DNA of 64,000 nucleotides from NCBI GenBank assembly GCA_009746045.1, contig RPFO01000131.1:186001-250000 (forward strand). Reading direction: 5' to 3'. The translations under genes and the position numbers were made by a program. Below are positions 18,392 through 51,305 of this stretch, one piece after another. Origin of the DNA: Mesostigma viride (Eukaryota > Streptophyta > Mesostigmatophyceae > Mesostigmatales > Mesostigmataceae). Position 1 is the first letter of the stretch. Each line of letters starts with the position of its first letter. Under the pieces are notes generated by a model that worked only from the letters and a program-made list of their open reading frames with translations, was not told where the DNA came from and searched no databases.

Positions 18392-18547
18392 CCTGGACAG
18401 GTCCTTAGATAGTACCCCAGATAAAAATTTTTGCCTGCCTGTTTTTATAACCTCTGTAGGAGCTGAATCTTCCCTACCACTACGTGTGCGTCCTCTTATG
18501 TTCTTGAATGGTGGTTTAACCGTCCCTCACACTGTTGTAGACCCTTC

Positions 18548-22503: not shown

Positions 22504-22544
22504 TTGTAGGCCTTCTCCTCTCTTATGTTATGTCTGCTGTCGAC

Positions 22545-22574
22545 GGGTGGTTGGTTGTCCCCTCCCCTCCGCAG
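22545..22574 (+). promoter_or_regulatory. Candidate splice acceptor for ORF3
   Basis: GTTGTCCCCTCCCCTCCGCAG, a nearly pure pyrimidine tract ending in CAG at 22572-22574, lies five bases before the ORF3 ATG at 22580. With the leader donor at 15902 it could make a spliced subgenomic RNA for ORF3, as retroviruses do for env. Read from sequence only. Confidence 0.5.
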
Positions 22575-22579
22575 CCGTC

Positions 22580-24868
22580 ATGTCAGAGCCTACCCCTCCG
22601 GCTGAGAGCCCGCTGCCGTCCCTGCCCCTACCGGACCCTGAGCTGTACTTCGAGGCCCTTCCGGGTCGTTGGGTTTCACGGTCTAGTTTCCCGGGTGGCG
22701 TCGTGCATCCGGCCCTCCAGGCCCAGCATGCGGGCATAGTCCGGGCGGCTCTCTTCGGGGTCACGTGGTACGGTCCTTCCCCTGCTGAACCGCAACAGCT
22801 TGTTTTGCACGGATTTGACGATGCCGGCCACTGTTTGCTAGAATGTGGCTCCAGCTGTCCAGCCCTGGGACAGATAGCTGCGATTCTCCAGTGCCCCAGG
22901 GTGTTTTCCTACCTTTCTACCCCTGTGGGCCGCTCCTGCCTACGGGATGTGTTCCCCTGGCTTCCTGCCGAGGGTGATGCGGAGCTGGATGAGAACCCCT
23001 GCGACCTGTTACGGGCCGTAGAGTTTATGGAGATAGCAGATCAGAACGTGGGTGTAGGATTTGGCGACCCTACCCCTACAGACGCGCCGGTAGAGGCGCA
23101 GTATTCCCCTGAGTATTCGGCCTCCCCTGCGGCGTCCTCCTCTTCAGTGTCGGCGCCTTCCCCTGTCCCGTCTTCACCGAGGTCGGTCCTGTGCGCATCG
23201 GTGGAGCCTACCCCTTCGGGCTCTGGTCGTGAGCCTGATCCTCTTGCAGCGACGGTTTCTGCGATGCAGGCGCAGATCCAGTCCCTGACGGCGGCCTTCG
23301 GGGCCTTCATGGCGGCCCAGGCGCACGCTCCAGCCACGCCAGGTGGGGTGTCTGTTGCAGCTGTGCCCCCTTCCCCTTCGGTCGCCTCGGCGTCTACGGC
23401 TCCCTCCGGTGCTGCAGCTCCTACGCCTTCGGCTACCGCTGCTCCTGCTACTGACGTACCTGCGCCTCGGCGCGAGTCCGCCGTCCCAGTGGCAGCGCCC
23501 GCCGCCGCCGCGTCCGAGCCGCCCACCACGTCAGCGCCGCCCTCGCGGGGTTTCTTCAGCGACCCGGGCGGTCTTCCCAGGCTTTGGGAGGGCGGTCCTC
23601 CGCAGAGGATCCCGGTGCCTGACTGGAGCTTGGACGGTAACCAGTCGTATGCCGGATTGCCTGTCCCCACGGGTCCTATTTTCAACATGTGGCCTGGTGG
23701 TGCTCCACCCCCAGAGACCGGCGCGCCAGTTGCGGAGGCGGGTCCGTCGCGACCCCCTGCGGCCTCGGGTCCGTCGCGGCCCCCTGTTGCACCGGCACCT
23801 TCTGCGCCTGTGCCGGTTCCTACCCCTTCGTCGGCCCCTGCCCCTTCGGCCCCGCGGTCTTTGGCTGCGGTTGTTCGGTCCAGTGGCTCTGACCCGCGCG
23901 CCACCCGCGCTGCCGATTCCCTTCGGGAGTTGTCAGAGGGCGATCGGGATCGGGCCCCTTCTGTGGTGCATGCGACTCCGGAGTCGCGCGACACGCCTGT
24001 CTTCGGGTATGGTATGTCTGCGCTCGCTTGTCGCCAGTGTGACCTGCCGCGCGCCTCCGCCGAGCTGGCCATTTCGCCCATGTCCTACGGGTTCTCCCAG
24101 GTGTGTCGGGCGCCGCGGGACCGTAACCTACCAGTTGAGACTGATCGGCCTCCTTTCGACATGGTCATTTTGGCTGATCCGGTGTTCCAGGGTGAGATCC
24201 TGGTTCGGCGCGTCCTGTACCGCTGGGCGCGGCGCCACAATGACTTGGACACCTACGGCGGGTTCCAGTGGGCCTACCCTCCGCCTCTGGGCATTATGGC
24301 CTCAGATGCTCTTACGGTAGATTTTCCTGCGGTGCCGGGTGCCACGTACAGCACCGTCCTTCAGCCCATCCTAGAGTGGGATGCCCGTCGTCCAGCGCCC
24401 ATCCCGGGCCAGGGTTTGGACTCTCGGGGTCATCCTCCTCCCCGGGCTAGCGACTACCTTGAGACGTTCGGGTCGCGACAGTGTGCCCGCCGGTGGCGTT
24501 CCCGCGAGATTCGGCACATCCGGTTGTGGCCGTCCAACGTGGAGCCCCTGGTAGATCTGTTTTTCCCGACGGGTATGCGCCCTCGGATCCGGTACCATCG
24601 CCTGCTCCTTCGGGCTCTCTGCCTGATCGCGGTAGAGCCTTTCCTACGCCTCTTTGCCTGCGGTTTCCTGGACTGGGCCCGGGGCCAGGTCGTTCTTACA
24701 CAGCACAGGTACTACTGGGCCTTCCTGGGACTTTTCCCTGACGGCGTGTGGGCCGATGTTTTCCTCACTGTAGATAGGCACGACAATGCTGAGGATGTGT
24801 CTCACTACCAGGCTTACCTGGATGTCCTGCTGGCCTCCCGTGGTACCTACCAGACGGATGGCCATTAG
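22580..24868 (+). CDS. gypsy-1 ORF3: post-pol protein of unknown function
   Basis: 762 aa, intact. The frame is open from 22454, overlapping the end of pol, but 22580 is the first ATG after the candidate acceptor. Three parts: an N-terminal domain (about 1-155) with 'CPRVFSYLSTPVGRSCL' and 'LLRAVEFMEIAD'; a long Pro/Ala/Ser linker (about 170-450) containing 'LAATVSAMQAQIQSLTAAFG'; and a C-terminal domain (about 480-762) with 'ALACRQCDLPRAS', 'GEILVRRVLYRWARRHND' and 'VVLTQHRYYWAFLGLFPDGV'. No signal peptide or membrane segment is visible, so it is not an evident envelope protein. Related ORFs occupy the same position in the truncated copy (3356-1633) and in gypsy-3. Conservation across diverged elements suggests a function for the element. 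I recognise no known family. Confidence 0.8.
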   Translation: MSEPTPPAESPLPSLPLPDPELYFEALPGRWVSRSSFPGGVVHPALQAQHAGIVRAALFGVTWYGPSPAEPQQLVLHGFDDAGHCLLECGSSCPALGQIAAILQCPRVFSYLSTPVGRSCLRDVFPWLPAEGDAELDENPCDLLRAVEFMEIADQNVGVGFGDPTPTDAPVEAQYSPEYSASPAASSSSVSAPSPVPSSPRSVLCASVEPTPSGSGREPDPLAATVSAMQAQIQSLTAAFGAFMAAQAHAPATPGGVSVAAVPPSPSVASASTAPSGAAAPTPSATAAPATDVPAPRRESAVPVAAPAAAASEPPTTSAPPSRGFFSDPGGLPRLWEGGPPQRIPVPDWSLDGNQSYAGLPVPTGPIFNMWPGGAPPPETGAPVAEAGPSRPPAASGPSRPPVAPAPSAPVPVPTPSSAPAPSAPRSLAAVVRSSGSDPRATRAADSLRELSEGDRDRAPSVVHATPESRDTPVFGYGMSALACRQCDLPRASAELAISPMSYGFSQVCRAPRDRNLPVETDRPPFDMVILADPVFQGEILVRRVLYRWARRHNDLDTYGGFQWAYPPPLGIMASDALTVDFPAVPGATYSTVLQPILEWDARRPAPIPGQGLDSRGHPPPRASDYLETFGSRQCARRWRSREIRHIRLWPSNVEPLVDLFFPTGMRPRIRYHRLLLRALCLIAVEPFLRLFACGFLDWARGQVVLTQHRYYWAFLGLFPDGVWADVFLTVDRHDNAEDVSHYQAYLDVLLASRGTYQTDGH

Positions 24869-24965
24869 ATAGAGGGCCTTAGGCCCGACCTGAGGGTGTT
24901 GTCCCTCCGGTATGTAGAGTCGCCCTCATGTTCTGGCCAGTTGACTGGTCGTTCTTGGTCCTTGG
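24869..24965 (+). other. gypsy-1 3' untranslated region, first part
   Basis: Continues after copia-1 at 32621-32898. It starts AGATAGAGGGCCTTAGGCCC and is conserved in the truncated element at 1632-1540. The last five bases (CTTGG, 24961-24965) are the copia-1 target duplication. Confidence 0.8.
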
Positions 24966-25438
24966 AGTTAGAATGCGGTGGGATATATTGCTTGAGAACA
25001 CTGTAAGCTGTGAGCAATGAATTGCTTGGTTCATTAGAAAATAGGTTTACCCTTTATCAACGTTCCTCTCACCGGCTGCGCCGCCAGTGACCGTTGGGTG
25101 CAGACCGTTGGCCCGAGGCCGCACGATGACAGGTAGCTGCCTAGTCACTGCATCGTGCGATCACAAATCAATGCACGCTGCAGTACGGTCCCTATCTAGG
25201 ATACTCTAGTACCGTCCAATGACAGGACACTACGTATACTGGGTACTGACATCTGTCACGTACCTCAGTACCCAAAGTACCTATCTAGGGAAACGTATGC
25301 GACTCGACTAGCATCCCTATCTGCATAGCCCACGTGGTATTTATATTCACATACCAACGTGGGTTTACAAGGCTTATTCATACGTTGTATTCACAATGCC
25401 TTTGAGACTTAGTCTACAGCAAAGCATGGAGACTAACT
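24966..25438 (-). repeat. 3' LTR of copia-1
   Basis: 473 bp, bounded by AGTTAG...CTAACT. It has one extra T (CTGTAAGCTG) relative to the 5' LTR. Confidence 0.95.
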
Positions 25439-25812: not shown

Positions 25813-28800
25813 TCAAACACTGACTCTGATATCATAGGGGTTCATGTTCTGAAAGAGGAGCTGGTACTGTTGGCCAGCAGCATCCCGCAGCTTCGTGAGA
25901 GCGTCTGCTGGGTTGTCCTCATCATCCACATGAGTCCAGCTGGAAAAGTAGGTTGCCTCCTGTTTGAGGATCACCCAATCCAGGTCAGTGTGGACAGCAG
26001 CAGAAACAGATTTCTTGGTTAGAAAACTGATCACAGATTGGCTGTCAGTATAGAGATGTGAGATGACATTGCATGTGCTGCCTGCCTGGGTTTGTAGCCA
26101 GGTGAGCATGTGCTGCAGGGAACGAGCATGCAATGCAGCAGACACCACAGCACGACATTCAGCTGAGTTGCTGCTGCCAGGTTTTCTGCGGTGTAGCCTG
26201 CTGTACCAGGAAGTGAGGGACATGTAATCTGACCTGTTGGTGAGAAAAAACAGCCCTGATTCCCGTGCCCCCATCTGATTGATTGTTCTGCTCTCCATGG
26301 AGCTGTCCATGACACATTGGATGTGGATGTCTTCCATCAGATTCAGGCCATGGAGGATGAGGGGGGGACAGTCATTGACCAACTTCCTGATGTGACTGCA
26401 TTTGATCTTGACTAGAACATCATGGGTGACCCTGCTGATGACAGCTAAGGGAGCCCCACAGATGGCTGACCACCACCCCAGTTTGCCCTGAACAGTGGCA
26501 CACATATGTAAGGGGAGGTAGTTGTCCTGCAGCAGATCTAGACAATCTTGGATATATTCTGCAGGAGGGGAGAGAGAGCAGACCCACTGATCTGGCTGCC
26601 TATGCAGCTGCAACATGATGCCACAGAACTGGATGGGGGTTGTGCTCAATTCCACCTGTTTGCCAATCTCATATGATTCCTGGACCTGCTGAATAAAGGT
26701 TTCCACCTCAGCTCTAGGCCCACAAATGAGTTGGTCATCTCCATGCCACACAAAGAACAGCAGTCCAGAGGGGGTGGGTACAACAAAAAAGCATGGGTCC
26801 AGGTCATCATACGTGGCCTTGAGCTTTTTGAATACTTCCTCTGCTGAGTCTCTGAAAATTTTTGGGGCACTGACAAGCCCTTCCACCCCAATGTTGATGA
26901 TAAGGTGGGGCTCATCAATATAAGGTTTCCACACAGCTGGGGTGTCTACCACGTACACCTTCCCTTTCCACACAGATTCAGCCTTTTCTGGGTCCCCCCT
27001 GAGGAAGGCCCTTTTAATATCAGTGGCTTTGCAGACATAGTCTTGGCCTGCATTGAGGTTGTGGAGGAAGAGGGAGAGCATGATCCTGAGTGAGGTTTGT
27101 TGCAGCCCAGGTGTGTATGTTTCCCCTTTTGGCAGTGTGGAGGTCCCCTTTAATTCTGTGACACATGGTCTGGCATGGAAGATTGGGGAGCCCACTTTTT
27201 GTGGTTTTTGTTTGAGAACAAATTTTAATCTGAGCTTTTTGGCTCCCTCTGGCACGTCCCATGAAGGGGTGACAGGCGGTTTGTATTGAGGGTTTTTGGG
27301 GTTGGGCAGGACCCATTCCTGCCTGGCTTGGTGGACAATGGCCATCAGCCACTTGGTAAACCCTTTTTGTGTTTTGCATTCTTGTATGACGTGGGAGATT
27401 TGGTGGGGTGAGTGCATGGCTATGTCCCACTTACCCAGCCCAAAGGCTGAGGGATGGAGGAACTGGCTGTGCACTAACTTGTCCAGATCAGGGATCTCCC
27501 CTGGTGCATACTGAGTGTTGACTGCCTTGATGACAGCATCCATACCAGGGACAATACTGGAGAGAGGGATTTTAAAGTGGTCCAGAGGAACTGCACCCAC
27601 CCCTGTGACACTGAGCTCATTAGCTGAGATAAGCACCCCAGGATAGGATACAAAAGGTTCCCCCAACAAGGTGTTACCAGAGTACCCCTCCACCACCTGG
27701 AAGGGTGTCTGAATACCAAGTATAGGGAGCATCACTTGTCCCACTACATCCAGTGAGCTTTGGCCTGAGAAATCCTGCACCCGTGCCCAAAATGAAGGTG
27801 CAATCTCAAGACCAGGGATGGCTTGTGCACTGATCACACTGACCTGTGCCTGAGTGTCTATTGCCAGGGTCCAGGGGTCCTGACTAGTGCACACAGCTGA
27901 GACTTTTGCCAACCCTGCGGCCACAGCAGCTTGTTGCTTATGTGACCTGTGTAATGCTTGCAAGGCGACTGCCAATCTTGACCTCAGAGCGGGAGGGTTG
28001 GCAGACAATTTGGTGCCTTGGGGCTGAGCTAATGCTTCCAACCCAGCTACCTCGTGCCTGGTTAAGCAATCCCCAGGTTGTGAAGTGGGCCTGGCTTCAC
28101 TGAGGGTGGAAGTGTTCACAGAGGGTGCTGTGGTGCTGTCAACAGCAGTAATTGGTGGCTCAGAGCTACTGCTGGGCATGCTGGAGTTGCCAGATAGAAG
28201 TAGTGAGTCCATGCTTAAAGACTCTTCCCCAGGCACGTCTGCCATGGGAGAATAATACTTCTTAATTCTATGACAGCTCACCCTGTGACGCTTCCCATTG
28301 ATATTGTGCTTGACCTCCACGGTCTTGCTGTTTTTGGTAAATCCACGGATGGTAACTGGACCTAGCCAAGTTCCAACCTTACCAAAGCTGTTTTCCTTGT
28401 AATAGAGAACTTGATCACCTTTTTGGAATACTGGCCTGGAATGGGTTTTATCTTTTTCTGCCAGTTTTGCTGAGGTTTGTGCACGTGCAGTGTTGTACAG
28501 TGCTATCACCTCTGGGGGATATACACCTGCCTGCAGGCCTGCTGGGATTACTTCACCCCACGTGGCATGCAAGACAGGTCTCATGTTTAGGGTTGTGCAC
28601 ATTTCATGACACCAGAGTGCCCTGTCACAATAGACCCCTGAAGTAGCATCCTTGGAAGGATTTTTGGCTAGTAGGGTTTTGACAGATCTGATGGTTCTTT
28701 CAATGACCCCCTGACCCTCATGATCTTCCAGCCCAGCAATCTCTATTGCTTCACACCCTTCCAGGTCAGTCAGACAAGAAAATTGTTGATCAAGCAAAAT

Positions 28801-29645
28801 TCTGTCAACTGGGTAGAATCTGGGTAAAGCAATCATGAGTGCAACACGTAGCTGCCCTGCAGACATGCCAGGTAGGGGTTCCATTACTGTGAACCTGGAC
28901 CATGAGTCTTTTAGGATCAGGTAGGGTTGGACATCTTTGTTGATGTGCATCACATCCCCCACTATCATGCCCCTATTGGTGGAAGGAGTTGCAGTATGCC
29001 ATTTTTGAGGTTTGGGGCTATTGAACTGACATTCTTGACAGTGTTGTCTAGCCAGTTTTACTGCATTCCTGAGTTGTTTTCCCATGCTACTACCCCCCAG
29101 CCGTCTGGCCAGTTCCTCAGCCACTGTTTCATGACCCATGGCTAGGTGCAGCTGATGAGCAAGCTCCTTGATATCTATGGAGTTGTCAACAGTAGGGGTT
29201 AGTGCTTTTATGTAAGGTTCCAGAACAGGGTGTTGGGAGGACAGTAAGGTTGCTGCCTCAAAATCAATTATGCCCTGGTTGCCATCCCCAATGGTAATGA
29301 GATCATCATCCTCAGAGTACATAAGGTGAGTGAACTCACATTGATTTGGGTAGCGAGGCCTGTTGCAACGGCTGCCTGGAGGCCCCAGGGGATGACGTGC
29401 GTGCCAGCAGCCCGGGCAGAGATCCACCCCGTTGGCCAGGGAGTCGTTGTTGGGGCAGTTGTGCCGTGCGTGCCCTCGTTGGAAGCACCTCAGGCACCTT
29501 ATGGACCCCCCAGGGTTGCCAGGCTGGTTGTTGTTGTTGTTGTTGTTGTTTCCCTGCTGGGACCGGTTCTGGCCCTGCTGGGACCTGTTGTTGTTGTTGT
29601 TTTGGCCCTGTTGGGACCTGTTGTTATTGTTGCCCTGCTGGGACC

Positions 29646-29679
<34 letters not shown>

Positions 29680-29700
29680 GGGGTTGCCATGCAGGGGCAC
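25813..29700 (-). CDS. copia-1 Pol: zinc knuckle, integrase, protease, RT, RNase H
   Basis: 1295 codons, uninterrupted. Asn/Gln-rich start, then a CCHC knuckle 'CLRCFQRGHARHNC' (69-82). Integrase: H185-x4-H190...C221-x2-C224; catalytic D249 ('VGDVMHI'), D304 ('ILLDQQFSCL'), E334 ('GQGVIERTIR'), so DD(29)E; SH3-like tail about 425-490. Next, after a Ser/Thr-rich linker, an aspartic protease: 'LAIDTQAQVSVIS' (D615) and 'NTLLGEPFV'. Then a copia-type RT: 'LRLKFVLKQKPQKVGS', 'ATDIKRAFLRG' (motif A), 'FFVWHGDDQLI' (motif C, 982-992), and an RNase H with 'DSSMESR', 'SAECRAVVSAALHARSL', 'YTDSQSVISFL' and 'NPADALTK'. Protease after integrase is unlike standard Ty1/copia (PR-IN-RT-RH). The frame is -1 relative to the end of gag and overlaps it by about 200 bp. 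Confidence 0.93.
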
Positions 29701-32130
29701 ACGGTGCCACGTGTTGCCACGCCCCTGAGAGCCACTGCCCCCTTGGTGGGAGGACTTGTGGGTCTTGGGTGCCCCCCCTGGCTGGCCTGCCCCTTGCGTT
29801 TGTGGCCTTGGACACCCTGGACCTTGGGGTCCTGGGCCTGGTTGTTGCCAGTACCCAGGGGGTCCACTGCCTCCTCGATATAGAGCATGGCAGCTCTGAA
29901 GTTGTCCCAGAGGGACTTGAGGCCTGTAAGCAGGGTAGCCAGGACAGAAGGTTGCAAATTAGCTTTTGTTAGCCAGGTGTGGATGAGATACCTTGGTTGG
30001 AGCTTGAGAAGCTCAAGGTCTTTCTCAATCATTACCCTGTATGTTTTTGCATCCCCAGAGAGGTTATTCTTGTTCACCTTATATGCAGCAAGCCAGTTGA
30101 AACGTTCTACTGCTTCCATGTGGTTATTGGTAAGCACTAGCTGTTTCAGATCAGTGATAAAGGTAGGCCACTGTTCAATGGCTGCTTCAGGTGTCAGGGT
30201 ACGTTCCTGATAGGTTTGAATCAATGCTCTGATTGCAGGAGATGATTGATGGAATGTGGAGGAGGCCCTGAGAGCCTTAAACTGATGTCTAAGGTTAAGA
30301 CCTTCCATCCCATACTCCAAAGCAAAAACAAATTGCTTAGCTTGTTCAACAGTGTGACCCTCAGGCAAGCCAGCAATATTGATTTTGGATTCCTTTTTAT
30401 GAGGGTTAAACACACCTGTGAGAGGGGGGTTGGCCCTCAAGAAGCTGTCGGTTGCTTGTTGCAGGCGGGTGGGGTCCAGGTTGATGGTCCCCCGCTCATA
30501 CCGCGACATCAGGGCGCGCAGGCCCTCGACAGTTTGCAGCTGGTTAGCTGTTAACTGCTGATCTTGCAACGAGGCCAGCTGGGCCTGGAGAATGGCGAGC
30601 TGTTCCAGGACATCCCCGCTCCTTGGGGGGGCCTCAGCAGGCCTGTTGGGTGCCTGTGGCACCTCTGCACCTCCCCCCAGGGCCTCCTGGGGTCCTGGCC
30701 ACCCCCCCTGGTTTGGGAGGGGGCCCCAACCCACAGGGCGAACCTGGGGTGGTGGGGGAGGGGGAGGGGGGTCATGGTGGCCCTGGGGGAGCCCGGGGGT
30801 GTCCGGGTAACCCCACTGGGTCCAGCCCCATCGGTGGAGGGGCGGGCAGGGGTGTCTGCCTCTGCTCTCCTCCTGGCCTCCTCCCGCATGAGACGCTTCA
30901 TCTCCTTGCGTACCTCATGCTCCCGGAGGGCTGCCTGAAAGGCAGCCTCATCCTCGGGTATGTCAGGGAGTGGTCTCCCATGATCATAGCAGGCCGGACT
31001 GGACAGTCCGCCTCTTTGCCCTTCCTCGCACCCAGGGCCAGCAGTCCCTCCTTGTACTGCAGGGGTTGGGGGGGAGAGGGTTTCTTGCTGGTGGTTTCCA
31101 GCGGGGGGGCTTCTTCAGCTACCACCCCATGTTTGGCCAAGATGGCCTCCGTGACCCTGGCTTGGGTGATGGAGGACATGGTTTTAAAGTGTGCTGACCG
31201 AGCAAGCTCGGCCAGGTCTTGACTGTCCGCATAGTCCATGGGATAGTCAGCATTTTTTAAGAGGTCACGTAACCGCTGGGTGGCCTCGCGGTACGCGTCC
31301 GCCATCGCCTGGTGGGTAGCCAGGCGACGGGCGGCTTCCTCTTCATATTCTTGCCGCTTAGCGGCGAGCCGAAAAGCCGCCTCTCGGCGGACCTCTCGGT
31401 CCCGCTGCCGCGCTCGGCGTTCTTCATTTGCCACCAGCGCGGCCTGCTCGACCGCCAGGAGCGCTGGGGTAAGATTGATCTCAGTCTCCCCATCGGGGAG
31501 ACTGGCAGTGTCGGATACCTCATCGTCGGACATTGGTTGTCCGGCGATGGGTTCCACAGGTTTTCGCACCACCCGTGCGAGTTTAATACTCTCCATGTCC
31601 TTCTTCTTGCGAAGAAGGGACGCAGAGGGTCGCCCAAACGTTAGCTCAATGTGGTTATGTCCCTGGGCGAAAGGGACATTAAGGTTTGATGTGGCGGGAC
31701 GAAAGGTAATCGTCCCGTCCGGTGCCACCGAGGCCGTCTGACGGGGCATACGCTCCCGAAGAGATGGCAACGTGGGGCCGGACTGTGGAGCCTCAGTGGG
31801 GTTTACCACCGAGGTCTCCGCAGCCATGGCCGCGCCAGCCGTGGTTGCGGCTGGGGCGGCCGCCGGAGTCGAGGGTAAGCCGGTCTCCCCGGGGGGAGCC
31901 GTCTCGGCCTCCGGCCTCGCAGGGGAGGGGGGTAGGTCGGTCGGCTTTGCAGCCGCCGTCCCCTCGTCCTGGCAACCATTGTGAGTCTTTTTGTTCTTTT
32001 TCTTTTTCTTGGAAATGGCCGCATCGCCAGCCGGCTTCTTGTTGTTGTCTCTGGGCATCCGCCGATCCTGCCCATCATCATCCTCGTTGTAGGTAAGCTT
32101 CTTAGCGACATTCTTGTTCGTGATAGCCAT
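29499..32130 (-). pseudogene. copia-1 gag, two frameshifts
   Basis: The ATG at 32130 lies 19 bases inside the 5' LTR. Frame one (32130-30898) is basic near its N-terminus (Lys-rich, 'KKKKKNKK'), then Pro/Ala-rich, then charged coiled-coil-like sequence. The frame shifts near 30960 ('EEARRRAEADTPARPSTDG' continues in another frame) and again near 30730, beside long C/G runs, into 30734-29499. That last part carries the conserved capsid-like region ('ESKINIAGLPEGHTVEQAKQ', 'LRASSTFHQSSPAIRALIQ') shared with copia-2 gag. C-terminal Thr/Asn tracts come from an AAC repeat. The two shifts at homopolymers may be real or sequencing errors. Confidence 0.75.
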
Positions 32131-32148
32131 GGTAGCAAATAAAATTCA

Positions 32149-32620
32149 AGTTAGAATGCGGTGGGATATATTGCTTGAGAACACTGAAGCTGTGAGCAAT
32201 GAATTGCTTGGTTCATTAGAAAATAGGTTTACCCTTTATCAACGTTCCTCTCACCGGCTGCGCCGCCAGTGACCGTTGGGTGCAGACCGTTGGCCCGAGG
32301 CCGCACGATGACAGGTAGCTGCCTAGTCACTGCATCGTGCGATCACAAATCAATGCACGCTGCAGTACGGTCCCTATCTAGGATACTCTAGTACCGTCCA
32401 ATGACAGGACACTACGTATACTGGGTACTGACATCTGTCACGTACCTCAGTACCCAAAGTACCTATCTAGGGAAACGTATGCGACTCGACTAGCATCCCT
32501 ATCTGCATAGCCCACGTGGTATTTATATTCACATACCAACGTGGGTTTACAAGGCTTATTCATACGTTGTATTCACAATGCCTTTGAGACTTAGTCTACA
32601 GCAAAGCATGGAGACTAACT
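32149..32620 (-). repeat. 5' LTR of copia-1
   Basis: 472 bp, AGTTAG...CTAACT. On the minus strand the sequence after it starts TGAATTTTATTTGC, the presumed primer-binding site; copia-2 also starts TGAATT there. I cannot assign a tRNA; a half-tRNA primer as in Drosophila copia is possible. Confidence 0.92.
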
Positions 32621-32898
32621 CTTGGTGCTGATTGGTTTACTCTGTGTGTCCTGCCCAGTGCCGTTCCCCCCGGCAAGGACTTTGTTCCAGGCAGTTAGGG
32701 GAACCTACCACCAGGCTTGGTGCTGGCTAACCCTACACCTCCAGGCGTGGTGGTGGAGACCGTGTGAACTATTGGTGCCTTGTATCTTGGATGGCCTGCT
32801 GACTGTGTTAGTGTGTGCTGGGTGCATTAGGTTTCCTACCCCTTTGTTTTCCTCCCTGTACGTAGGGAGAGGGCTCCCTACCTTTGTGGGGGGGGAGG
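32621..32898 (+). other. gypsy-1 3' untranslated region, second part, with polypurine tract
   Basis: Continues the region broken by copia-1 (starts with target duplication CTTGG). It ends in the tract GTGGGGGGGGAGG (about 32886-32898), directly before the 3' LTR, a good polypurine tract for plus-strand priming. Confidence 0.85.
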
Positions 32899-33472
32899 TG
32901 TTACGTCGCGTAACAATTCGTTGTAGTTACGGACGTAAATTAGGTCTTTTGCCTCGGTTGTCCCTAGGTTTACGTTTAGGCTCCTACCGGGACATTATTG
33001 TCCTCGTAACAGTACTGTGGTACATTGGGTGCCGTTGGGCGCCGCGCCGCGTACTTTACTAGTGGTCCTGATCCTGTGGTAGAATGTAGTGGACCAGCGT
33101 GCATCAGTAGATGTAGTGGACCAGCGTGCATCTGTAGGCGAGGGCCATGTCGGCCCGAGCGTGTTTGGACCGTTGGTGACCATTTATGCGCGTTCTACCC
33201 CTTGTGTGTGCACTCGGCGTGTGTTAAATGAATTGACACATTTAGGCTTGGGTCACGGCAGTGTAGTTGTGTTTCCTTCCTCTATTCCTGGAGTAAACGG
33301 GTTTTGATAAATGGTTGTATGGCGTATTATAGTAACACTTACGTTAATGCATTGAGATCAGCTCCGTCACGTTCGTCTTTCGCCAGAGGGTTAAGTAGAG
33401 GAGGCCTGACCAGTTTAGGTAGTATCAGGCCCATTAGAGGTAGAGGTGGAGGTAGATATCCGCGGCGTAACA
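32899..33472 (+). repeat. 3' LTR of gypsy-1
   Basis: 574 bp, same length and encoded peptides as the 5' LTR; followed by the target duplication CCCAG at 33473-33477. Confidence 0.95.
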
Positions 33473-33477
33473 CCCAG

Positions 33478-34200
33478 CATATTTGGCAGTCTATTGTGGT
33501 CAATTATATTGCATCATTGTATGGCATAGCATAGTTGGCTGTTTGCGCGCGCGTACATAAGCCACACACGTAAACGCGGGCATGGTATGGGTCAAATGGG
33601 CTATCCGGGTAGTTTGACCAAAGGAAAGCACCATTGGACTATCCAACTAAATTGTCCAATGTTGGGTTTGAGGTTTCTGACCCTCCCCTCAGTAGAAGGG
33701 GGGGGGGGGGGGTATACTTTTTCTTGGCACGAAATGATCGTCTTTTGGCTCACTTTGACTGAAGGTATCATCCAAAGTACTAATTAGACTCATGATATTA
33801 TTGCATATTATGAAAGCCCTTGAAATGTAGATACTCCTAGCATCTTGGTTGGAGGTATTTGGAGTTGTGGTATATGAGTTATGATTTTTGGCAATTTTAG
33901 GGGTCTGAAAGTGCCAAATGGGGCCTGGCGGAGTATGGGCCAAGTTGGGTTCACGCCTTAAGAGAGGATGAGTGGTGCGTCACAGCATGCACCCACTCTC
34001 CGTGCTAGGCTACCTAATCTGCCCGTTGGGTTGACCCCTCAAAAACCACGAACCCAACTTAAGGCGTGAATGTCTGTACATACAGGAGGGGTGACATTCA
34101 CTCATTCAGCCAAGCTACAGGGGCCGGATGCCCGGATGGCCGGATCCTGCAGGCTGCACCGGTGCAGCCGCCGGTCCAGAATGACTGGCCACTATTTCCA
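33478..34200. other. Right flank of gypsy-1, no gene recognised
   Basis: Contains a poly-G run (about 33699-33712) and, at about 33945-34072, two copies of a TTCACGCCTTAAGTTGGG-type motif in inverted arrangement about 90 bp apart. Similar motif fragments occur at 11571, 12862-12920 and 13410. They may be ends of a small non-autonomous DNA element. No coding sequence seen. Confidence 0.45.
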
Positions 34201-34455
34201 TATCAAGTAACGTGCGTGTTTGCAACTTGCCCGTTGAAACTCTACGGCGGAGCCAATTTTCGGAAGAACCTCACCCTTATGGTTGCAAATGCGTGACAAA
34301 TTGAATCAGTGGATGGATGGATGGCTTGACGGATTTTATCCCCTATTCCATGCCGATTCCTATGTTTTTCTCACGTGTACGGCCCTATCAACTAACGTGC
34401 GTGTTTGCAACTTGCCCGTTGAAACTCTACGGCGGAGCCAATTTTCGGAAGAACT
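34201..34455 (+). repeat. 185-bp tandem unit (one and a part copies), broken by copia-2
   Basis: 34201 onward is repeated from 34386 (period 185 bp). The second unit is cut at 34455 by copia-2 and continues at 41764. Each unit has the order AACGTGCGTGTTTGCAACTT, GGCGGAGCCAATTTTCGGAA, TCACCCTTAT, a GGAT tract, then TTTTATCCCC. The GGAT tract is only about 16 bp in unit one. Confidence 0.85.
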
Positions 34456-34899
34456 AGTTAATAAACGAGTGGACCTCTCAATGCTCAATGGCCTAAGGCA
34501 TGTGTTTATTACAAATAAATCACAAGCCCCGCACCCAACGTGCACAAGGGCATTTAGCATTGTCGACAAGCAACGCTCTGCCTGGCCGCCACGTCTGGAG
34601 CAGCCGACAGTGGCCGTTGGGCTCTGTGGTGCAGCCTGAGTGGCGCGACGCCACTGCTAGACTCTCAGGACCTTAGTCCAACATCCGACACCTCAATGTC
34701 AGTCCCGAGTGGGTACTGGCGACGCCGTACCGCCAATCCTACTTGGGTACTGGCGTCCGTCACCAGGACTCGGCTATCGAATAGTCTAGCCTGCCGAATC
34801 ACATATAGCCGGGACTTCTGACCGAGCCTACACGTGCGAAACCCCAGATAGCACATTGCTATCTGGTACTTAGCCTATGTCCACGACTAGAGGCTAACT
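34456..34899 (-). repeat. 3' LTR of copia-2
   Basis: 444 bp. Differs from the 5' LTR by one base in an A-run and one G/C change (AAGGC/AACGC). Followed internally by CCAG, as in copia-1. Confidence 0.95.
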
Positions 34900-35262
34900 C
34901 CAGTTTTATTCTTTTTTTTTTTTTTTTTTTTAAGGCATCAGTGCTGCACCTCCAGTTTTTATTCCTTTTGTTTTTTGCAGGTACTTGGCAATATCATGAA
35001 TAAGACATTGGTACAGGAAAACTCATATCAGACCACAATGGACGTTGTGAATTAAAGCGCCCACAGACCCCATTGCCTTTAAATCTGACAGTGTCTTTGA
35101 GGTTTCTGAACCTAGGATCCCCTGTTTGTACAAGTCAGTGGAGTGATGAGTGGCTATGGAAAAACCAGGGGGCACATCAAGAAATTATTATGTTTGTTGC
35201 CAAGTTGCCACCAGCTGGGAAAGACCATAGTCTGCACCATTAGTCTGGAGTGCCCTATTTCA
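34900..35262 (-). other. copia-2 3' untranslated region
   Basis: Has a long T-run on the plus strand (about 34912-34931), meaning an A-rich tract on the coding strand close to the LTR. No ORF of note. Confidence 0.6.
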
Positions 35263-37914
35263 TCATCCATTTGTCTGACTAGACAGATAGGGATTCATTG
35301 CATCACACAGAAGCTGGTACTGGGTTGCTGCTAATGACGGAATCTTGGTCAATGCGTCAGCCAGGTTCTCCTCGTCTGGCAGATGCTGCCAGCTGGAAAA
35401 ATAGCTTGTTTCCTGTTTCAAAATCACCCAGTCCAGATCAGTATGCACAGCAGCAGTCACAGATTTCTTGTTAAGGAAACTAATGACTGACTGACTGTCA
35501 GTGTGTAAGTGAGCATGCACATCAGCCTTGCTGCCAGCCTGAGTTTGCAACCAGGTTAGTATGTGCTGAAGGGATCGAGCATGCTGCACAGCAGACACCA
35601 CAGCACGGCACTCAGCAGAGTTACTGCCAACAGCTTTTCTGCGATGCAATCTGCTGTACCACGACACCATGGACATATAGTCTCCCTTGTTGGTAAGGAA
35701 GAACACCCCAGCCTCCCTGGCATCCATTTTTGTTATTACCCTACTCTCCATGGAGCTGTCCATCAGACAGTTAATGTGAATATCTTCCATGAGGTTGAGT
35801 GGATGAATGACAAGGGAAGGTCCAGCCGTTAGTAGCTTCTGGAGATCCTTAGGTTTCATGGTTTGTAATACTGTGTCATCAATCCTGCTGACCACTGCCA
35901 GATGAGGTGCACAGATAGCACTCAGCCACCCTAATTTTCCTTTGACAGTAGCACACATGTGAGCAGGAATGCACGGAATATCAAGCAGCTCTAGGCATTC
36001 TTCTAAGTACTGGGCAGGCGGGGATAGAGTACACACCCACTGTTCCTGTTGCTCTTCCAGTGCTAGCATTATGCCACAGAACTGTAGGGGTTCTGGCCCC
36101 AGCTCTGTCTGCTTTCCAATCTCATATGACTGCTGAACCTGCTGAATGAACTTGTCAACTTCAGCTCTTGGTCCACAAATCAGTTGGTCATCACCATGCC
36201 ACACAAACAGGAGCAAGCCAGAGGGTGTGGGCACAGCAAAGAGACAAGGGTCCAGATCATCATAAGTGGCATTAAGTTTCTTGAACACCTCTTCTGCTGA
36301 TTTTCTGAAGATAGTGGGAGCACTTTGCAAACCTTCCACCCCTAGATTTAGGAGTAGATATGGCTCATCAATATCATGTGCCCATGCAGCAGGGGTGGGA
36401 ACCACATAGACCTGACCCTTCCACACATCTTGCGCTTTATCAGGGTCCCCTCTAAGGAAAGCCCTTTTGATATCAGTAGCTTTGCAGGCATAATCTTGGC
36501 CAGCATTGAGATGGTGGAGGAAGACAGAGAGCAGTATCCTGAGGGATGTTTGCTGCAGCCCAGGAGTGTAGAGTTCACCCTTGGACAGTTTTGACATGCC
36601 TTTTAATTCTGTCACACATGGCCTAGCATGATATATAGGTGAGCCTACTGGCTGTGCCTTGTGTTTTAGCACAAACTTGAGTCTCAACTTTTTGGCACCT
36701 TCTGGAATTTCCCAGACAGGAGTGACAGGTGGCTTATAGTCAGGATGCTTAGGGTTTGGCAGCACCCACTCTTCGCGGGCTTGGTGCCTAATGGCTTGGA
36801 TCCATTTTTGAAACCCTTTTTGTGTTTTGCATTGTTGGATTAGAGCATCATAGTTGTGAGGAGAGTGCATGGCTAAGTCCCACTTTCCAACCCCAAAGGA
36901 CTGCGGGTGTGGCCTTTGATTGTGCACCTTTTTCTCTAGGTCAGGGATTTCACCTGGCCCATATTTGATGTTAATGGCCTTGATATAGGCATCTAATCCA
37001 TGAACCAGTTGGGACAATGGAATCTTGTAGTGATCCAAGGGAATGGCTCCTACCCCAGTCACACGCAGCTGGCTAGCAGTGATGGTGACACCTGGGTAAG
37101 AGATAAAGGGTTCTCCCAACAAAGCATTGCCCATGTACCCTTCCACTACCTGGAAAGGTGTCTGGATGCCAAGTATGGGGATCATTACTTGACCCAACAC
37201 ATCTAAGGTTGTTTTGCCTGAAAAATCTTGCACCTGTGTCCATGGTGAGGGTGCAAGTTGCAGACCAGGAATGGCTTGTGCACTGATCACACTGACCTGT
37301 GCCTGAGTGTCCACAGCTAGGATGCAGGATTCCTGGCTATAATCGGAGCACACAGCAGAGACCTTGGCCAAACCTGAGGCTTGTTTAGCCTTGCTCTTGT
37401 GAGCCTTATGCAGAGCTGCCAGGGCTTTTTCTAGCTTGGATTTGAACTCAGCTGGATTGCCTTTGTTTTGCTCTGGTACCTCATGCCTGGTTGAACTCTG
37501 CCCAGAGGGACTTACACCAGGTTGTGGGGTGACACGTACCTCACTGAGGGGTGGAGGAATGACAGAGGGTGTGGTAGTGCCATCATCAGCTCCTGGTGTT
37601 GGAATGCTGGGTGGTTCTGCTTGCTCACCAGAGTTAAGGAGGGAATCCATGTTCAAGGACTCTTCCCCTGGCACGTCTGCCAAAGGAGGGAAATACTTCT
37701 TAACTCTATGACTGCTCACCCTGTGTTTTCTCCCTGTTTCCAAACTTCGAATATCCATATTTTTTCCTTTTTTGGTCATTCTTAGAACAGTGCACGGACC
37801 ATACCACATGCCTGTCTTGCCATGTTTGGTTTCTTTGAAATATAGGACTTGTTCACCCAGTTGGAATACTGTTCTGGGGTGTGTTATGTCCTTTTCAGCT
37901 AGCTTATCAGCCAC
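35263..37914 (-). CDS. copia-2 Pol part 2: integrase tail, protease, RT, RNase H
   Basis: 883 codons, downstream of a frameshift in pol. Begins with the end of integrase ('LGEQVLYFKETKHGKTGMWY', SH3-like), then a Pro/Ser-rich linker, then protease 'LAVDTQAQVSVIS' (D202) with 'NALLGEPFI', RT 'LRLKFVLKHKAQPVGS', 'ATDIKRAFLRG' (motif A) and 'FVWHGDDQLI' (motif C, about 571-580), and RNase H with 'DSSMESR', 'AECRAVVSAVQHARSL', 'HTDSQSVISFL' and 'NLADALTK'. Clearly homologous to copia-1 over its length yet diverged. It confirms that the protease lies between integrase and RT, with the same D-T-Q active-site triad. Confidence 0.92.
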   Translation of the reverse strand: MADKLAEKDITHPRTVFQLGEQVLYFKETKHGKTGMWYGPCTVLRMTKKGKNMDIRSLETGRKHRVSSHRVKKYFPPLADVPGEESLNMDSLLNSGEQAEPPSIPTPGADDGTTTPSVIPPPLSEVRVTPQPGVSPSGQSSTRHEVPEQNKGNPAEFKSKLEKALAALHKAHKSKAKQASGLAKVSAVCSDYSQESCILAVDTQAQVSVISAQAIPGLQLAPSPWTQVQDFSGKTTLDVLGQVMIPILGIQTPFQVVEGYMGNALLGEPFISYPGVTITASQLRVTGVGAIPLDHYKIPLSQLVHGLDAYIKAINIKYGPGEIPDLEKKVHNQRPHPQSFGVGKWDLAMHSPHNYDALIQQCKTQKGFQKWIQAIRHQAREEWVLPNPKHPDYKPPVTPVWEIPEGAKKLRLKFVLKHKAQPVGSPIYHARPCVTELKGMSKLSKGELYTPGLQQTSLRILLSVFLHHLNAGQDYACKATDIKRAFLRGDPDKAQDVWKGQVYVVPTPAAWAHDIDEPYLLLNLGVEGLQSAPTIFRKSAEEVFKKLNATYDDLDPCLFAVPTPSGLLLFVWHGDDQLICGPRAEVDKFIQQVQQSYEIGKQTELGPEPLQFCGIMLALEEQQEQWVCTLSPPAQYLEECLELLDIPCIPAHMCATVKGKLGWLSAICAPHLAVVSRIDDTVLQTMKPKDLQKLLTAGPSLVIHPLNLMEDIHINCLMDSSMESRVITKMDAREAGVFFLTNKGDYMSMVSWYSRLHRRKAVGSNSAECRAVVSAVQHARSLQHILTWLQTQAGSKADVHAHLHTDSQSVISFLNKKSVTAAVHTDLDWVILKQETSYFSSWQHLPDEENLADALTKIPSLAATQYQLLCDAMNPYLSSQTNG

Positions 37915-39221
37915 TTTAGCCTTACTGTGTTATACAGAGCTAATACCTCTGGAGGGTACACACCTGCCTGTAAGCCAATGGGAAGGATTTCCCCCCATGG
38001 TGCATGCAACACAGGTCTAAGGTTAAGTGTAGCACAGATTTCACTGCACCACAGTGCTCTGTCAGCATAGCTTCCAGATGTGGCTTTCAGGTCAGTGGAT
38101 TTCGCCACTAAAGTTTTGACTGACCTGATGGTTCTTTCAATGACACCCTGCCCTTCATGATCTTGCAATCCAGCAATCTCAATATTAGCATCCCATCCTT
38201 CACACTCAGCCAGACAGCTAAACTGTTGATCAAGCAGTATAGTGTCAACTGGGTAGAATCTGGGCAATGCTATCACAAGTGCTGCACGCAGTTGCTCTTT
38301 AGCCATTCCAGGTAGGGGTTCCATGACAGTGAATCTGGACCATGTGTCTTTTAGGATCAGATATTGTTCACCATCGATATGCACGACATCACCCACAATT
38401 ATTCCCCTTTGGGTGGGTGGTGTTGCGACATGCCATTTGGGAGGTTTTGGGCCATGGAACTGACATTGCTGGCAGTGTTTTCTAGCCAACCTGACAGCAT
38501 TCCTGAGTCGTGAACCTCCTGCTCTTCTGGCAATCTTTTCTGCCACCACCTCATGACCCATGGCTATGTGGAGCTGGGTTGCTAGTTCCCTTAAGTCTAC
38601 TGTGTCAACAGCAGCTGGGGTAAGAGCTTTGAGGTAGGGCAGTATCACATTATACGTGGAGGAGATTTTCTGAGCTGCCTCAAAATCTAGCAGTCCCTTG
38701 TCTTTATCCCCAATGATAATGAGATCATATAAATCCACATAGGCGTGCTGTGAGGACGTACATCCTTTTGGAGCCTTGTCCTGCCGGTCGCACCACGTGC
38801 CGGGGGGCAGATGGCGGGGGTGCTTGCAACCGAAGCAGAGGTCCACGTCGCCTACTGCGGGGTTCCACTTGCAGTCCGCCCGCTGGTGTCCCTTGGTGCC
38901 ACACCGGGTGCACTTGTTCTTGGGACCTGCATGGGGGGGCTGAGCAGTGGGTGCAGGGGTGGGTGGGGCAGGTGTGGGGGGGTGGGCCGCCTCCACTGGT
39001 TTGGCTTGAGCTGAGCAGGCTGTCCCGGCTGGCCTTGGGGCTGGTTGCCCTTGGCCTTCTTGGACTGGCCGCCCTGCTGCCCCCCTAGCTGGCGCTTTTT
39101 TCCTTGCCCCTTCCCTTGGGTCTGTTGGACCTTGGGGGTTGGGGTTGCAGACGGAGCACCTATAGCCAGGGGAGTCAGGCAGTCTTGGATATGGTTCATC
39201 CCCGCCCGGAAATCGTTCCAC
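37899..39221 (-). pseudogene. copia-2 Pol part 1: zinc knuckle and integrase (ends at a frameshift)
   Basis: 440 codons. The frame overlaps the end of gag by about 370 bp in the -1 frame. CCHC knuckle 'CTRCGTKGHQRADC' (104-117), then integrase with 'QLHIAMGH...CQQC' zinc finger, 'VGDVVHI', 'ILLDQQFSCL' and 'GQGVIERTIR' (DD(30)E). It runs out of frame at 'YNTVR', where copia-1 continues; the matching sequence resumes in the neighbouring frame at 37914. A single-base loss near 37915-37925 explains this. The copy therefore cannot make an intact Pol unless the base is a sequencing error. Confidence 0.88.
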
Positions 39222-41284
39222 AGAGGTTTGAGACCTGCAACCACAGTGGCGTACACAGCTTTGTCCAGGTTAGCATTTGACAACCATGAATACAGCAGGT
39301 AGCTAGCAGGCAGACCCCTGAGATCAGGGTCCTTTTCTACAGCCAACCTATAATTCTTGCAATCAGTGGCATAGTCTTGCTTGTTGACCTGGTAAGCATT
39401 AAGCCAGTTGAAACCACGGATGGATTCAAACTGTGTCCTATCCACCAGCAAGTGCTTAAGCTCATCCATGAAGGCTGGCCACAATGCAATTGCTAGGTTA
39501 GGTGTCCCAGCCTTTTCTTGGTAAATCTGGACCAAGGTTTTAATGGCTGGGGCTGACCTATGGATGGTGGTGGATGCACGCAAGGCACTGAACCAGTTCT
39601 GGACATTCAGAGACTCAAAACAGTAGTTCAGGCTAAACAAAAATTCCTTGGCCTGTTCCTGGGTGTAACCCTCAGGTAAGCCAGGGATTTCTATTTTAGA
39701 TTCTTTTTGTTTTGGGTTAAACGTACCTTTGACCGGGTCCTTCTTTTCAGCCAAGAAAGTCTTGACTGCTTGTTGAAGATCAGCCTCCTCCATGTTCGCC
39801 CTGCCCCTTTCCAGCTGGGAGATACTGGCCAGGAGGCCATCCAGCTGGGTGCGCGACAGGTCGTCCATGGGGTTGGTGGCCATGGTCTTGAGCTGTGCCG
39901 TGAGTATGGCAAGCAGCTCTTGGACGTCCCCCTTAAGGGTGGGTGGGGTTGGGTCCACTGGGGTCCCTTTTGCCACCGCCTTGCTCTTATCTGACTGCCC
40001 TGGTGTGGGTGCAGTCTGCTGGGCCTCCGCAGAAGGTGGTTGTGTTCCAGCTTGCTGTGCTAGTGCAGTGGCTGGTGGTGTTCCAGCTGCAGGCGCAGGG
40101 TCTTGTTCCCCTTGCCTTACTCCACTGCTGGTAGGAAAACCCTTGGCCTGGCCAAGCTGCTGCAGCGCTGCTGCTTGGGCTGCCAGGCCGCCCTCACGGG
40201 CTATCATGGCCTCTAGGAGTTTATTCTCCACCACCTTGCGGCGGTGGAGCTCCTGGGCATCCGGGTCACTTGGGGGTTTGCTGGGGGAGCTGGGGACAGT
40301 GCCCTGGCTCTTGCCCTGCAGCACCCTTGGTGACACGGCCCCTCCAACCACCCTTTGGCTCAAATCAGTGCCAGGGGTGGGGAGGGTATGTGCAGGGAGT
40401 GCAGGCGTTTCTGTTGCCTGCATCTTCTCCTGCAGCTTGGTCAGCTGCAACAGGAGGGAATTGAGTTGGTCCGCTGTTAGCGTGACCCCCTCGTCCCCCT
40501 GTGCAACAACCAGCTCATTGAAGAGGCGCTCATGGAGCACCTCTCCAGCTTGCATGGCAGCCAGCTGCTTTTCAGCAGTCATGTTGCGGGCCGCTGTCTT
40601 TTTGCGGTCCCGCTCTTGCTGTGCAAGACGGCGTGCCTCTACAAACTGGGCGGCGGCCTGTTCGACCGCCTGATTGAGTGGATTCATCTCAATCTCCCCA
40701 TCAGAAACCCCTGGGGAGAGGGTGACCTCGTCATCAGACAGCTGAATGCTGCCGATGACGGGTCCTGGGACCTTCTTGGTCCGCATTTTGAACATGTATG
40801 CGTCCCTCTTCAGCTTCCTCTCGTACCCCCCCGCTTTCTGAGCGGATGAGGGGACGATCGGCACCCCCGCTTGTTCTCCACCGCTTTTGGCTATTCCGCC
40901 CTCCTCCTGAGGAGGTTGGGACGGTGCCTTAGCGGGGAGGTCAGCGGGGCTTGCCTGAGGGCTGGGGGACCGCATACTGCTTACGGATTTTTGCGAGCTA
41001 GCTGGGCTAGAAAAAACAGATTTTTCGGCCTGTTCGGCCAAGGAGGTTACCTGTTTTTGCAGGGCTGCCAGCTGCCGCTCTTGGGCGGCTGCCTTGACGC
41101 TTTGCTGAGCCATCGCTGTCGCTAGCTGCCTAGCCACTAGCTGTTCCTGCTCCGCCTGCGCCCTTCTTGCTTTTTTAATTTTCTTGGCCGCAGCCTTCTC
41201 CTCTACTGTTGGCACCGTCTGCCAGCCAGCATCATCTATCCGCTTCTTTTTGAATTTCAGGCCTGGCATAATAGGATCTCCCAT
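38852..41284 (-). CDS. copia-2 Gag
   Basis: 810 codons, intact. ATG is 31 bases inside the 5' LTR. N-terminal basic and coiled-coil-like stretches ('KKIKKARRAQAEQEQLVARQ'), a Pro/Ser-rich middle, a second helical region ('AARNMTAEKQLAAMQAGE'), and a capsid-like region shared with copia-1 ('KESKIEIPGLPEGYTQEQA', 'LRASTTIHRSAPAIKTLVQI', 'GLKPLWNDFRAGMNHIQ'). The C-terminus is Gln/Gly/Lys-rich, likely nucleic-acid binding. The zinc knuckle is not in this frame but in the -1 overlapping pol frame, so Gag itself lacks it. Gag is longer than in typical copia elements. Confidence 0.88.
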   Translation of the reverse strand: MGDPIMPGLKFKKKRIDDAGWQTVPTVEEKAAAKKIKKARRAQAEQEQLVARQLATAMAQQSVKAAAQERQLAALQKQVTSLAEQAEKSVFSSPASSQKSVSSMRSPSPQASPADLPAKAPSQPPQEEGGIAKSGGEQAGVPIVPSSAQKAGGYERKLKRDAYMFKMRTKKVPGPVIGSIQLSDDEVTLSPGVSDGEIEMNPLNQAVEQAAAQFVEARRLAQQERDRKKTAARNMTAEKQLAAMQAGEVLHERLFNELVVAQGDEGVTLTADQLNSLLLQLTKLQEKMQATETPALPAHTLPTPGTDLSQRVVGGAVSPRVLQGKSQGTVPSSPSKPPSDPDAQELHRRKVVENKLLEAMIAREGGLAAQAAALQQLGQAKGFPTSSGVRQGEQDPAPAAGTPPATALAQQAGTQPPSAEAQQTAPTPGQSDKSKAVAKGTPVDPTPPTLKGDVQELLAILTAQLKTMATNPMDDLSRTQLDGLLASISQLERGRANMEEADLQQAVKTFLAEKKDPVKGTFNPKQKESKIEIPGLPEGYTQEQAKEFLFSLNYCFESLNVQNWFSALRASTTIHRSAPAIKTLVQIYQEKAGTPNLAIALWPAFMDELKHLLVDRTQFESIRGFNWLNAYQVNKQDYATDCKNYRLAVEKDPDLRGLPASYLLYSWLSNANLDKAVYATVVAGLKPLWNDFRAGMNHIQDCLTPLAIGAPSATPTPKVQQTQGKGQGKKRQLGGQQGGQSKKAKGNQPQGQPGQPAQLKPNQWRRPTPPHLPHPPLHPLLSPPMQVPRTSAPGVAPRDTSGRTASGTPQ
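39095..39101 (-). promoter_or_regulatory. Candidate -1 frameshift heptamer (A AAA AAG) in copia-2
   Basis: On the coding strand, gag codons GGA AAA AAG form the X XXY YYZ heptamer A-AAA-AAG, inside the gag/pol overlap. A -1 slip leads into the open pol frame that reads KKAPARGAAG. I did not find an equally clear heptamer in the copia-1 overlap. Confidence 0.45.
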
Positions 41285-41315
41285 GATTTTGTCTATGGTA
41301 AACGACTTTAATTCA

Positions 41316-41758
41316 AGTTAATAAACGAGTGGACCTCTCAATGCTCAATGGCCTAACGCATGTGTTTATTACAATAAATCACAAGCCCCGCACCCAACGT
41401 GCACAAGGGCATTTAGCATTGTCGACAAGCAACGCTCTGCCTGGCCGCCACGTCTGGAGCAGCCGACAGTGGCCGTTGGGCTCTGTGGTGCAGCCTGAGT
41501 GGCGCGACGCCACTGCTAGACTCTCAGGACCTTAGTCCAACATCCGACACCTCAATGTCAGTCCCGAGTGGGTACTGGCGACGCCGTACCGCCAATCCTA
41601 CTTGGGTACTGGCGTCCGTCACCAGGACTCGGCTATCGAATAGTCTAGCCTGCCGAATCACATATAGCCGGGACTTCTGACCGAGCCTACACGTGCGAAA
41701 CCCCAGATAGCACATTGCTATCTGGTACTTAGCCTATGTCCACGACTAGAGGCTAACT
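41316..41758 (-). repeat. 5' LTR of copia-2
   Basis: 443 bp. On the minus strand it is followed by TGAATTAAAGTCG, the presumed primer-binding site, and then by the gag ATG. Confidence 0.93.
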
Positions 41759-41802
41759 GAACTTCACCCTTATTATGGTTACAAATTCGTGACAAATTCG
41801 GT

Positions 41803-41925
41803 GGATGGATGGATGGATGGATGGATGGACGGACGGACGGACGGACGGACGGACGGACGGACGGACGGACGGACGGACGGACGGACGGACGGACGGACGG
41901 ACGGACGGACGGACGGACGGACGGA

Positions 41926-42013
<88 letters not shown>

Positions 42014-42370
42014 CACACACACGGACGGACGGACGGACGGACGGACGGACGGACGCACGGACGCACGGACGCACGGACGCACGGACGCACGGACGCACGG
42101 ACGCACGGACGTACGCACGGACGGACGGACGGACGGACGGACGGACGGACGGACGGACGGACGGACGGACGGACGGACGGACGGACGGACGGACGGACGG
42201 ACGGACGGACGGACGGACGGACGGACGGACGGACGGACGGACGGACGGACGGACGGACGGACGGACGGACGGACGGACGGACGGACGGACGGACGGACGG
42301 ACGGACGGACGGACGGACGGACGGACGGACGGACGGACGGACGGACGGACGGACGGATGGATGGATGGAT
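41803..42370. repeat. Expanded tetranucleotide array (GGAT / GGAC / GCAC)n
   Basis: Starts as (GGAT)n, changes to (GGAC)n, then (GCAC)n, a mixed GGAC-GCAC block, and (GGAC)n again, ending in (GGAT)n. It occupies the position of the about 16-bp GGAT tract of the neighbouring 185-bp unit, so it is the same tract grown more than thirty-fold. Large open frames of R-T-D-G and S-V-R-P repeats across it are artefacts. Confidence 0.97.
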
Positions 42371-42454
42371 TGACGAATTTTATCCCCTTTTATACCTATG
42401 TGTTTTTCTCACGTGTACGGCCTTATAAGCTTCGCCAATTCTGGAGAACCTAAC

Positions 42455-51139: not shown

Positions 51140-51305
51140 GGAACTGGCACGTTGAGGAGCCTAGCCTGAAACTTGAGTAAGTGACCTGGTACAGGAGGAC
51201 CCACAGGGACAGCAGGGTCAGAAGCACCCACAGTGTTCACTGGCCTAACGTCAACAGCAGGCAGGTCAGACCTGGCCATGACAGAAGGATGACCTGGGGA
51301 CCCAA

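Follow-up and report, generated by a model that had tools for sequence, protein, structure and literature searches.

LTR retrotransposons of Mesostigma viride with a retropepsin-like domain between the integrase and a copia-type reverse transcriptase

The 64,000-nucleotide stretch of the Mesostigma viride genome analysed here (the window; positions 186,001 to 250,000 of contig RPFO01000131.1, assembly GCA_009746045.1) carries two long terminal repeat (LTR) retrotransposons, designated copia-1 and copia-2. The pol of both encodes a CCHC zinc knuckle, an integrase (IN) with HHCC and DDE residues and an SH3-like tail, a retropepsin-like domain (PR), a copia-type reverse transcriptase (RT) and RNase H (RH), in this order. 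The standard orders are PR-IN-RT-RH in the Pseudoviridae (Ty1/copia) and PR-RT-RH-IN in the Metaviridae (Ty3/gypsy). The IN-PR-RT-RH order is real and common to four families, and the elements have been recently mobile. We consider it probable, at roughly three chances in four, that they belong to an LTR retrotransposon clade that stands beside copia, has a permuted pol and has been active recently. The order of the pol domains is a main character for classing LTR retroelements, and this would be a third stable order, found in an alga that stands at the base of the lineage leading to land plants.

Each element has a pair of LTRs (99.8% identical in copia-1 and 99.6% in copia-2), a flanking 5-bp target-site duplication (TSD; CCAAG and AGTTC, respectively), gag, and a pol with IN, a weakly supported PR, RT and RH. 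The LTR termini are AGTTAG...CTAACT or ...TTAACT in both elements, and not TG...CA. An earlier note on this DNA had described a single uninterrupted frame of 1295 codons in copia-1, which is present as described (Table 1). The same order had been claimed for copia-2, and this holds as well, although a frame break where the integrase tail begins splits the matching copia-2 sequence over two open reading frames (ORFs).

The genome searched for further copies comprised 2243 contigs (440 Mb), including the window. With the PR-RT-RH part of copia-1 as query, 62 places were scored out of 8409 first-look candidates. All of them, the copy in the window included, are stop-free with 100% protein identity, and the copies are spread over many contigs. 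Of 30 excised loci, 27 (a count that again includes the copy in the window) carry 0-7 substitutions relative to the window within 25813-29450, ten of these also having at least one small deletion; three of the 30 are cut short upstream. At 25 of 38 loci, markers of IN, PR and RH stand in that order in a single stop-free frame; the 38 include four places that had been loaded twice. The abundance of near-identical copies suggests that mobility in this host has been recent. A third family is represented by P0002, a Mesostigma gene model labelled Mesvir1, which matches the genome at 100% over 699 amino acids in several places; for this family 71 rows were matched, of which 13 lie in open frames of 1249 amino acids. 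Its only copy read (L045) has the integrase motifs followed by the protease in one frame, and is 32.7% identical to copia-1 over 612 amino acids. The fourth family, P0001, is an ENA protein from a 6224-base contig that has the same order and shares 30% identity across 93% of the query. Apart from the copia-1/copia-2 pair, these families are only 27-39% alike.

The order common to all four supports the claim of the earlier note that this is a stable lineage. The opposite explanation, an ordinary Ty1/copia element with a local rearrangement or an assembly error, would agree with the copia-type RT and RH. We give it practically no credence, since the order is shared by families so diverged, one of which occupies 62 places with identical protein on many contigs, and since the canonical copia elements of the same genome have PR before IN at all six loci read (about four families). 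For the window copies it is already refuted.

The RT and RH are clearly copia-type when judged by profile. Compared by hhalign with profiles built on four canonical copia loci from this genome and on two gypsy elements of the window, RT gave probabilities of 95.9 versus copia and 0.5 versus gypsy, and RH gave 94.0 and 2.1, respectively. In hmmsearch, the copia RT profile aligns to all five lineage members (3.8-18.5 bits), and so does the copia RH profile (0.0-23.8 bits). RVT_2 matches residues 815-1014 of copia-1 below the Pfam cut-off (E 1.2e-4) and copia-2 above it (E 3.9e-9). In the RT tree, the five lineage sequences fall outside the five copia sequences, with the two gypsy sequences; the copia split has a value of 94 and the separation of copia plus gypsy from the lineage has 91, on very long branches and with thin sampling (one of the copia sequences has a deletion). 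At the canonical copia loci L031, L032, L035 and L036 of this genome, the RT reads HVDD and the protease DSAA, not DSGA.

The integrase has an H-x4-H zinc motif. H185, H190, C221, C224, D249, D304 and E334, which include the catalytic residues named in the earlier note, are invariant in the alignment of copia-1, copia-2 and P0001, P0001 having one residue fewer between the cysteines (C-x-C). Pfam rve has no match in copia-1 or copia-2 and a weak one in P0001 (E 0.15). In a structure model built from four sequences, the mean predicted local distance difference test (pLDDT) score is 47.8, and that of the SH3-like tail is 71-85. Foldseek gave 1066 matches to this model at E <= 10; the 50 listed are all retroviral integrases, with a best E of 1.9e-8 and 41 at E <= 1e-3. 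Against the gypsy integrase profile the domain scored 25.0 over its N-terminal 55 columns (probability 2.6%; 0 of 60 shuffles as high), whereas against the copia integrases of the same genome it did no better than shuffles (score 11.9; 54 of 60 as high). The copia label of the earlier note thus fits the RT and RH but not the integrase. In the tail, a possible GPY/F module reads GPV in copia-1, GPC in copia-2 and GPG in L045 and is absent in P0001; in the profile comparison the tail scored 17.4, with 3 of 60 shuffles as high. One report describes GPY/F as a hallmark of gypsy and endogenous retrovirus (ERV) integrases (PMC2836005). The lineage integrase appears to lean weakly toward those of gypsy elements and retroviruses.

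As judged from sequence comparison, the domain directly before RT is conserved and under purifying selection: its ratio of nonsynonymous to synonymous substitution rates (dN/dS) is near that of RT, and it is about as conserved. An aspartic protease had been proposed here with D615 as its catalytic residue. D615 lies in 'LAIDTQAQVSVIS' and LLGEPF follows downstream, as proposed, but the motif is DTQA instead of the canonical DTGA or DSGA. Convergent weak evidence suggests that the domain is retropepsin-like by fold. The Foldseek and VIA lists for a model of residues 585-735 are headed by retropepsins, the model being of low confidence and no E value significant; a profile alignment is in catalytic register; and two lineage members match the same weak Pfam protease family, below its cut-off, over corresponding stretches of its 92-position profile (12-90 and 14-91). 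The fold check proposed in the earlier note thus comes out in favour of a retropepsin without being final.

Several observations weigh against a recently active clade with a protease inside such a pol. In the four families, the active-site motif is D-T-Q/N/M-A, with D-T kept and Q, N or M where retropepsins carry G. The protease model has a pLDDT of 42.5, and in VIA the counterpart of HIV protease residue 25 is model residue 32, whereas D615 is model residue 31, a shift of one position. The hhalign probability of the protease is 1.6% and is exceeded by the best shuffles; against a differently cut gypsy set the score falls to 16.0 over 22 columns, with 2 of 60 shuffles as high. In Pfam, no match to the copia-1 protease segment or to P0002 passes the HMMER filters, and the IN-PR linker has a likewise low dN/dS of 0.165, with synonymous sites saturated. 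Elsewhere in the elements, against the gypsy profile, too, the RH outscores all 60 shuffles, at a weak score of 20.8; the integrase model overlays poorly on its matches (TM 0.14-0.40, root-mean-square deviation 15-24 Å); the catalytic residues of L045 read D,D,D, the expected final E being replaced; gag and pol share one frame in two of the nine copia-1-family copies read; and behind the 5' LTRs of copia-1 and copia-2 the sequence begins TGAATT, with no TGG-type primer-binding site. Exceptions are known both to TG...CA LTR ends and to tRNA-complementary primer-binding sites.

The middle domain might have a retropepsin fold but be inactive, with a structural or RT-linker role, and the polyprotein might be cut by a host protease or remain uncut. 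The loss of the glycine in all four families points in this direction, as the consensus described in PMC6952103 is D-S/T-G-A. We regard this as unlikely, since the D-T pair is kept in copia-1, copia-2, P0001 and P0002 despite their divergence, the dN/dS resembles that of RT, that glycine is missing from canonical copia elements of this genome too (DSAA at four of the six loci read), and neither Pfam nor the motif scan revealed another protease candidate upstream. It is far less probable still that the segment is a linker domain holding D-T-x-A and LLG by chance. Such a linker would agree with the low-confidence model, the hhalign value and the absence of a significant single-sequence match; however, in the sequence-only PDB search even a canonical gypsy protease of the window has no significant match (DDI1, E 1.4), and the retropepsins heading both structural lists, the coinciding Pfam profile positions and the catalytic register all speak for a retropepsin. 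That the middle domain is active as a protease is the least secured step in the reading of a permuted, mobile pol.

A canonical protease upstream of the integrase, which according to the earlier note would have refuted its claim, was found neither by motif scan nor by Pfam. The gag ORFs of both elements contain no match to a Pfam protease family at a limit of E 10, although the HMMER filters suppress most hits above 0.1. Scanning three frames of both internal regions for D[ST][GAQNMC][AC], which is blind to other protease motifs, returned the two domains and one out-of-frame DTGA in copia-2; positive controls were run for the upstream search. A hidden upstream protease was rejected, this sole extra match being taken as chance.

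The C-terminal part of gag and pol are offset by -1 in seven of the nine copia-1-family copies, and the ORF coordinates of copia-2 give the same offset. In three of the nine, gag occupies a single frame of 881-882 amino acids. The three whole-gag copies have an in-phase G-GGG-GGT immediately ahead of the stop codon of gag, with a run of G at some distance upstream, and copia-2 has an in-phase A-AAA-AAG and C runs; these are candidate frameshift sites. In both families the CCHC knuckle is in the pol frame, and given the -1 offset it would therefore occur only in the fused product. The leader between the 5' LTR and the gag ATG is very short, 18 bases in copia-1 (32131-32148) and 31 in copia-2 (41285-41315).

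A possible life cycle can be outlined from these features. RNA transcribed from the 5' LTR would be translated to Gag and, via -1 frameshifting in the overlap, to a Gag-NC-IN-PR-RT-RH fusion (NC, nucleocapsid). The protease domain would dimerise in assembling particles and cut the polyprotein from its middle, and might stay attached to RT, as happens in foamy viruses. RT-RH would copy the RNA, and the integrase would insert the cDNA with a 5-bp stagger. A third stable order would mean that a particle-forming element can function with its protease in mid-pol and its integrase in front, and the lineage would offer a natural test of how domain order affects polyprotein processing as well as a source of retropepsin-like domains without the active-site glycine.

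The permuted order probably arose once. Recombination may have placed a gypsy/retroviral-like integrase, and perhaps the protease too, before a copia-like RT-RH, or the protease may have moved within a copia-like ancestor; the former is slightly preferred because the integrase has no match to copia integrases. IN-PR-RT-RH may also be regarded as a circular permutation of the gypsy order. A further-reaching proposal, to which we would give a little less than an even chance, is that of a separate major LTR-retroelement lineage, sister to Ty1/copia. Its order would have come about by joining a copia-like RT-RNase H to a protease whose active site is remodelled and to an integrase resembling those of gypsy elements and retroviruses; the lineage would have been active recently in Mesostigma, and at least one further record (P0001) would contain it. 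The case bears on the view of integrase, protease and RT as exchangeable evolutionary modules.

Among known systems, the lineage resembles the Pseudoviridae in its RT and RH profiles, in the H-x4-H motif and in having the integrase before RT. It differs from them in the protease behind the integrase, the integrase without a copia match and with an SH3-like tail, and gag and pol that usually occupy separate frames, the knuckle lying in pol. With the Metaviridae, including the chromoviruses of the window, it shares a protease-like domain directly before RT and a weak similarity in the integrase N-terminus and perhaps the tail, whereas its integrase is first instead of last and its RT and RH fit copia far better; Pfam finds no chromodomain in copia-1 or copia-2. 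Goodwin and Poulter (2002) reportedly described gypsy-like elements with the copia-like order PR-IN-RT-RH. These are a precedent for a changed pol order, while the lineage here has IN-PR-RT-RH and a copia-like RT. Foamy viruses have their integrase last and a retroviral RT. Their PR-RT (PMC8402755) resembles the lineage in that the protease is joined directly to RT. Troyka (PMC12440569) has likewise been separated from a large family only lately, but it is reported as sister to Metaviridae/Gypsy.

No description of the IN-PR-RT-RH order was found in the open-access literature searched, Repbase and most subscription journals lying outside that search. The clade may nevertheless have been catalogued already as copia or unclassified, for example in Repbase or in an unsearched paper. 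Mesostigma gene models of it stand in a public proteome set, and the genome paper on the M. viride NIES-296 assembly gives LTR elements as 27.9% of that assembly, with 60339 counted by automatic annotation tools (PMC6947507). With the literature result on the other side, we judge such a prior entry unlikely.

Table 1. Features of copia-1 and copia-2 in window coordinates.
Feature	Position	Strand	Remarks
copia-1 5' LTR	32149..32620	-	AGTTAG...CTAACT; TSD CCAAG at 32621-32625
copia-1 3' LTR	24966..25438	-	TSD CCAAG at 24961-24965
copia-1 gag, N-terminal piece	30898..32130	-	frame broken in window copy
copia-1 gag, C-terminal piece	29499..30734	-	overlaps pol; pol in -1 frame
copia-1 NC-IN-PR-RT-RH frame	25813..29700	-	1295 amino acids, uninterrupted
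copia-1 CCHC zinc knuckle (pol frame)	29449..29508	-	zf-CCHC_3 E 0.011, below cut-off
copia-1 integrase	28237..29196	-	HHCC, D249/D304/E334, SH3-like tail
copia-1 retropepsin-like domain, residues 606-700	27601..27885	-	IDTQA ... LLGEPF
copia-1 reverse transcriptase, copia type	26521..27300	-	DIKRAFLRG, WHGDD
copia-1 RNase H, copia type	25831..26403	-	copia profiles
copia-2 5' LTR	41316..41758	-	TSD AGTTC at 41759-41763
copia-2 3' LTR	34456..34899	-	TSD AGTTC at 34451-34455
copia-2 gag, 810 amino acids, single frame	38852..41284	-	pol in -1 frame
copia-2 NC knuckle (38868-38918), integrase N-terminal domain and core	37899..39221	-	ORF
copia-2 integrase tail, retropepsin-like domain (37054-37338, VDTQA...LLGEPF), RT, RNase H	35263..37914	-	ORF

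Around copia-2, a tandem array with a unit of mostly 8 bases adjoins the 5' LTR (41715-42453), and the ORFs called inside it are probably spurious; beside the 3' LTR, a 72-base stretch is present twice (97%) at 34198-34454. The window also contains Ty3/gypsy chromovirus genes at 17273-22503 (+) and 46944-52103 (-), with gag, protease, RT, RNase H, integrase and chromodomain matches in standard order, and a chromovirus at 62730-63998 (-) that is cut by the window end and has only integrase and chromodomain. Between the first chromovirus and the copia-1 3' LTR lies an ORF of 804 amino acids (22454-24868, +) with no Pfam match at E 0.1, and an ORF at 9980-10840 (-) matches glycosyl transferase family 90 (E 2e-30).

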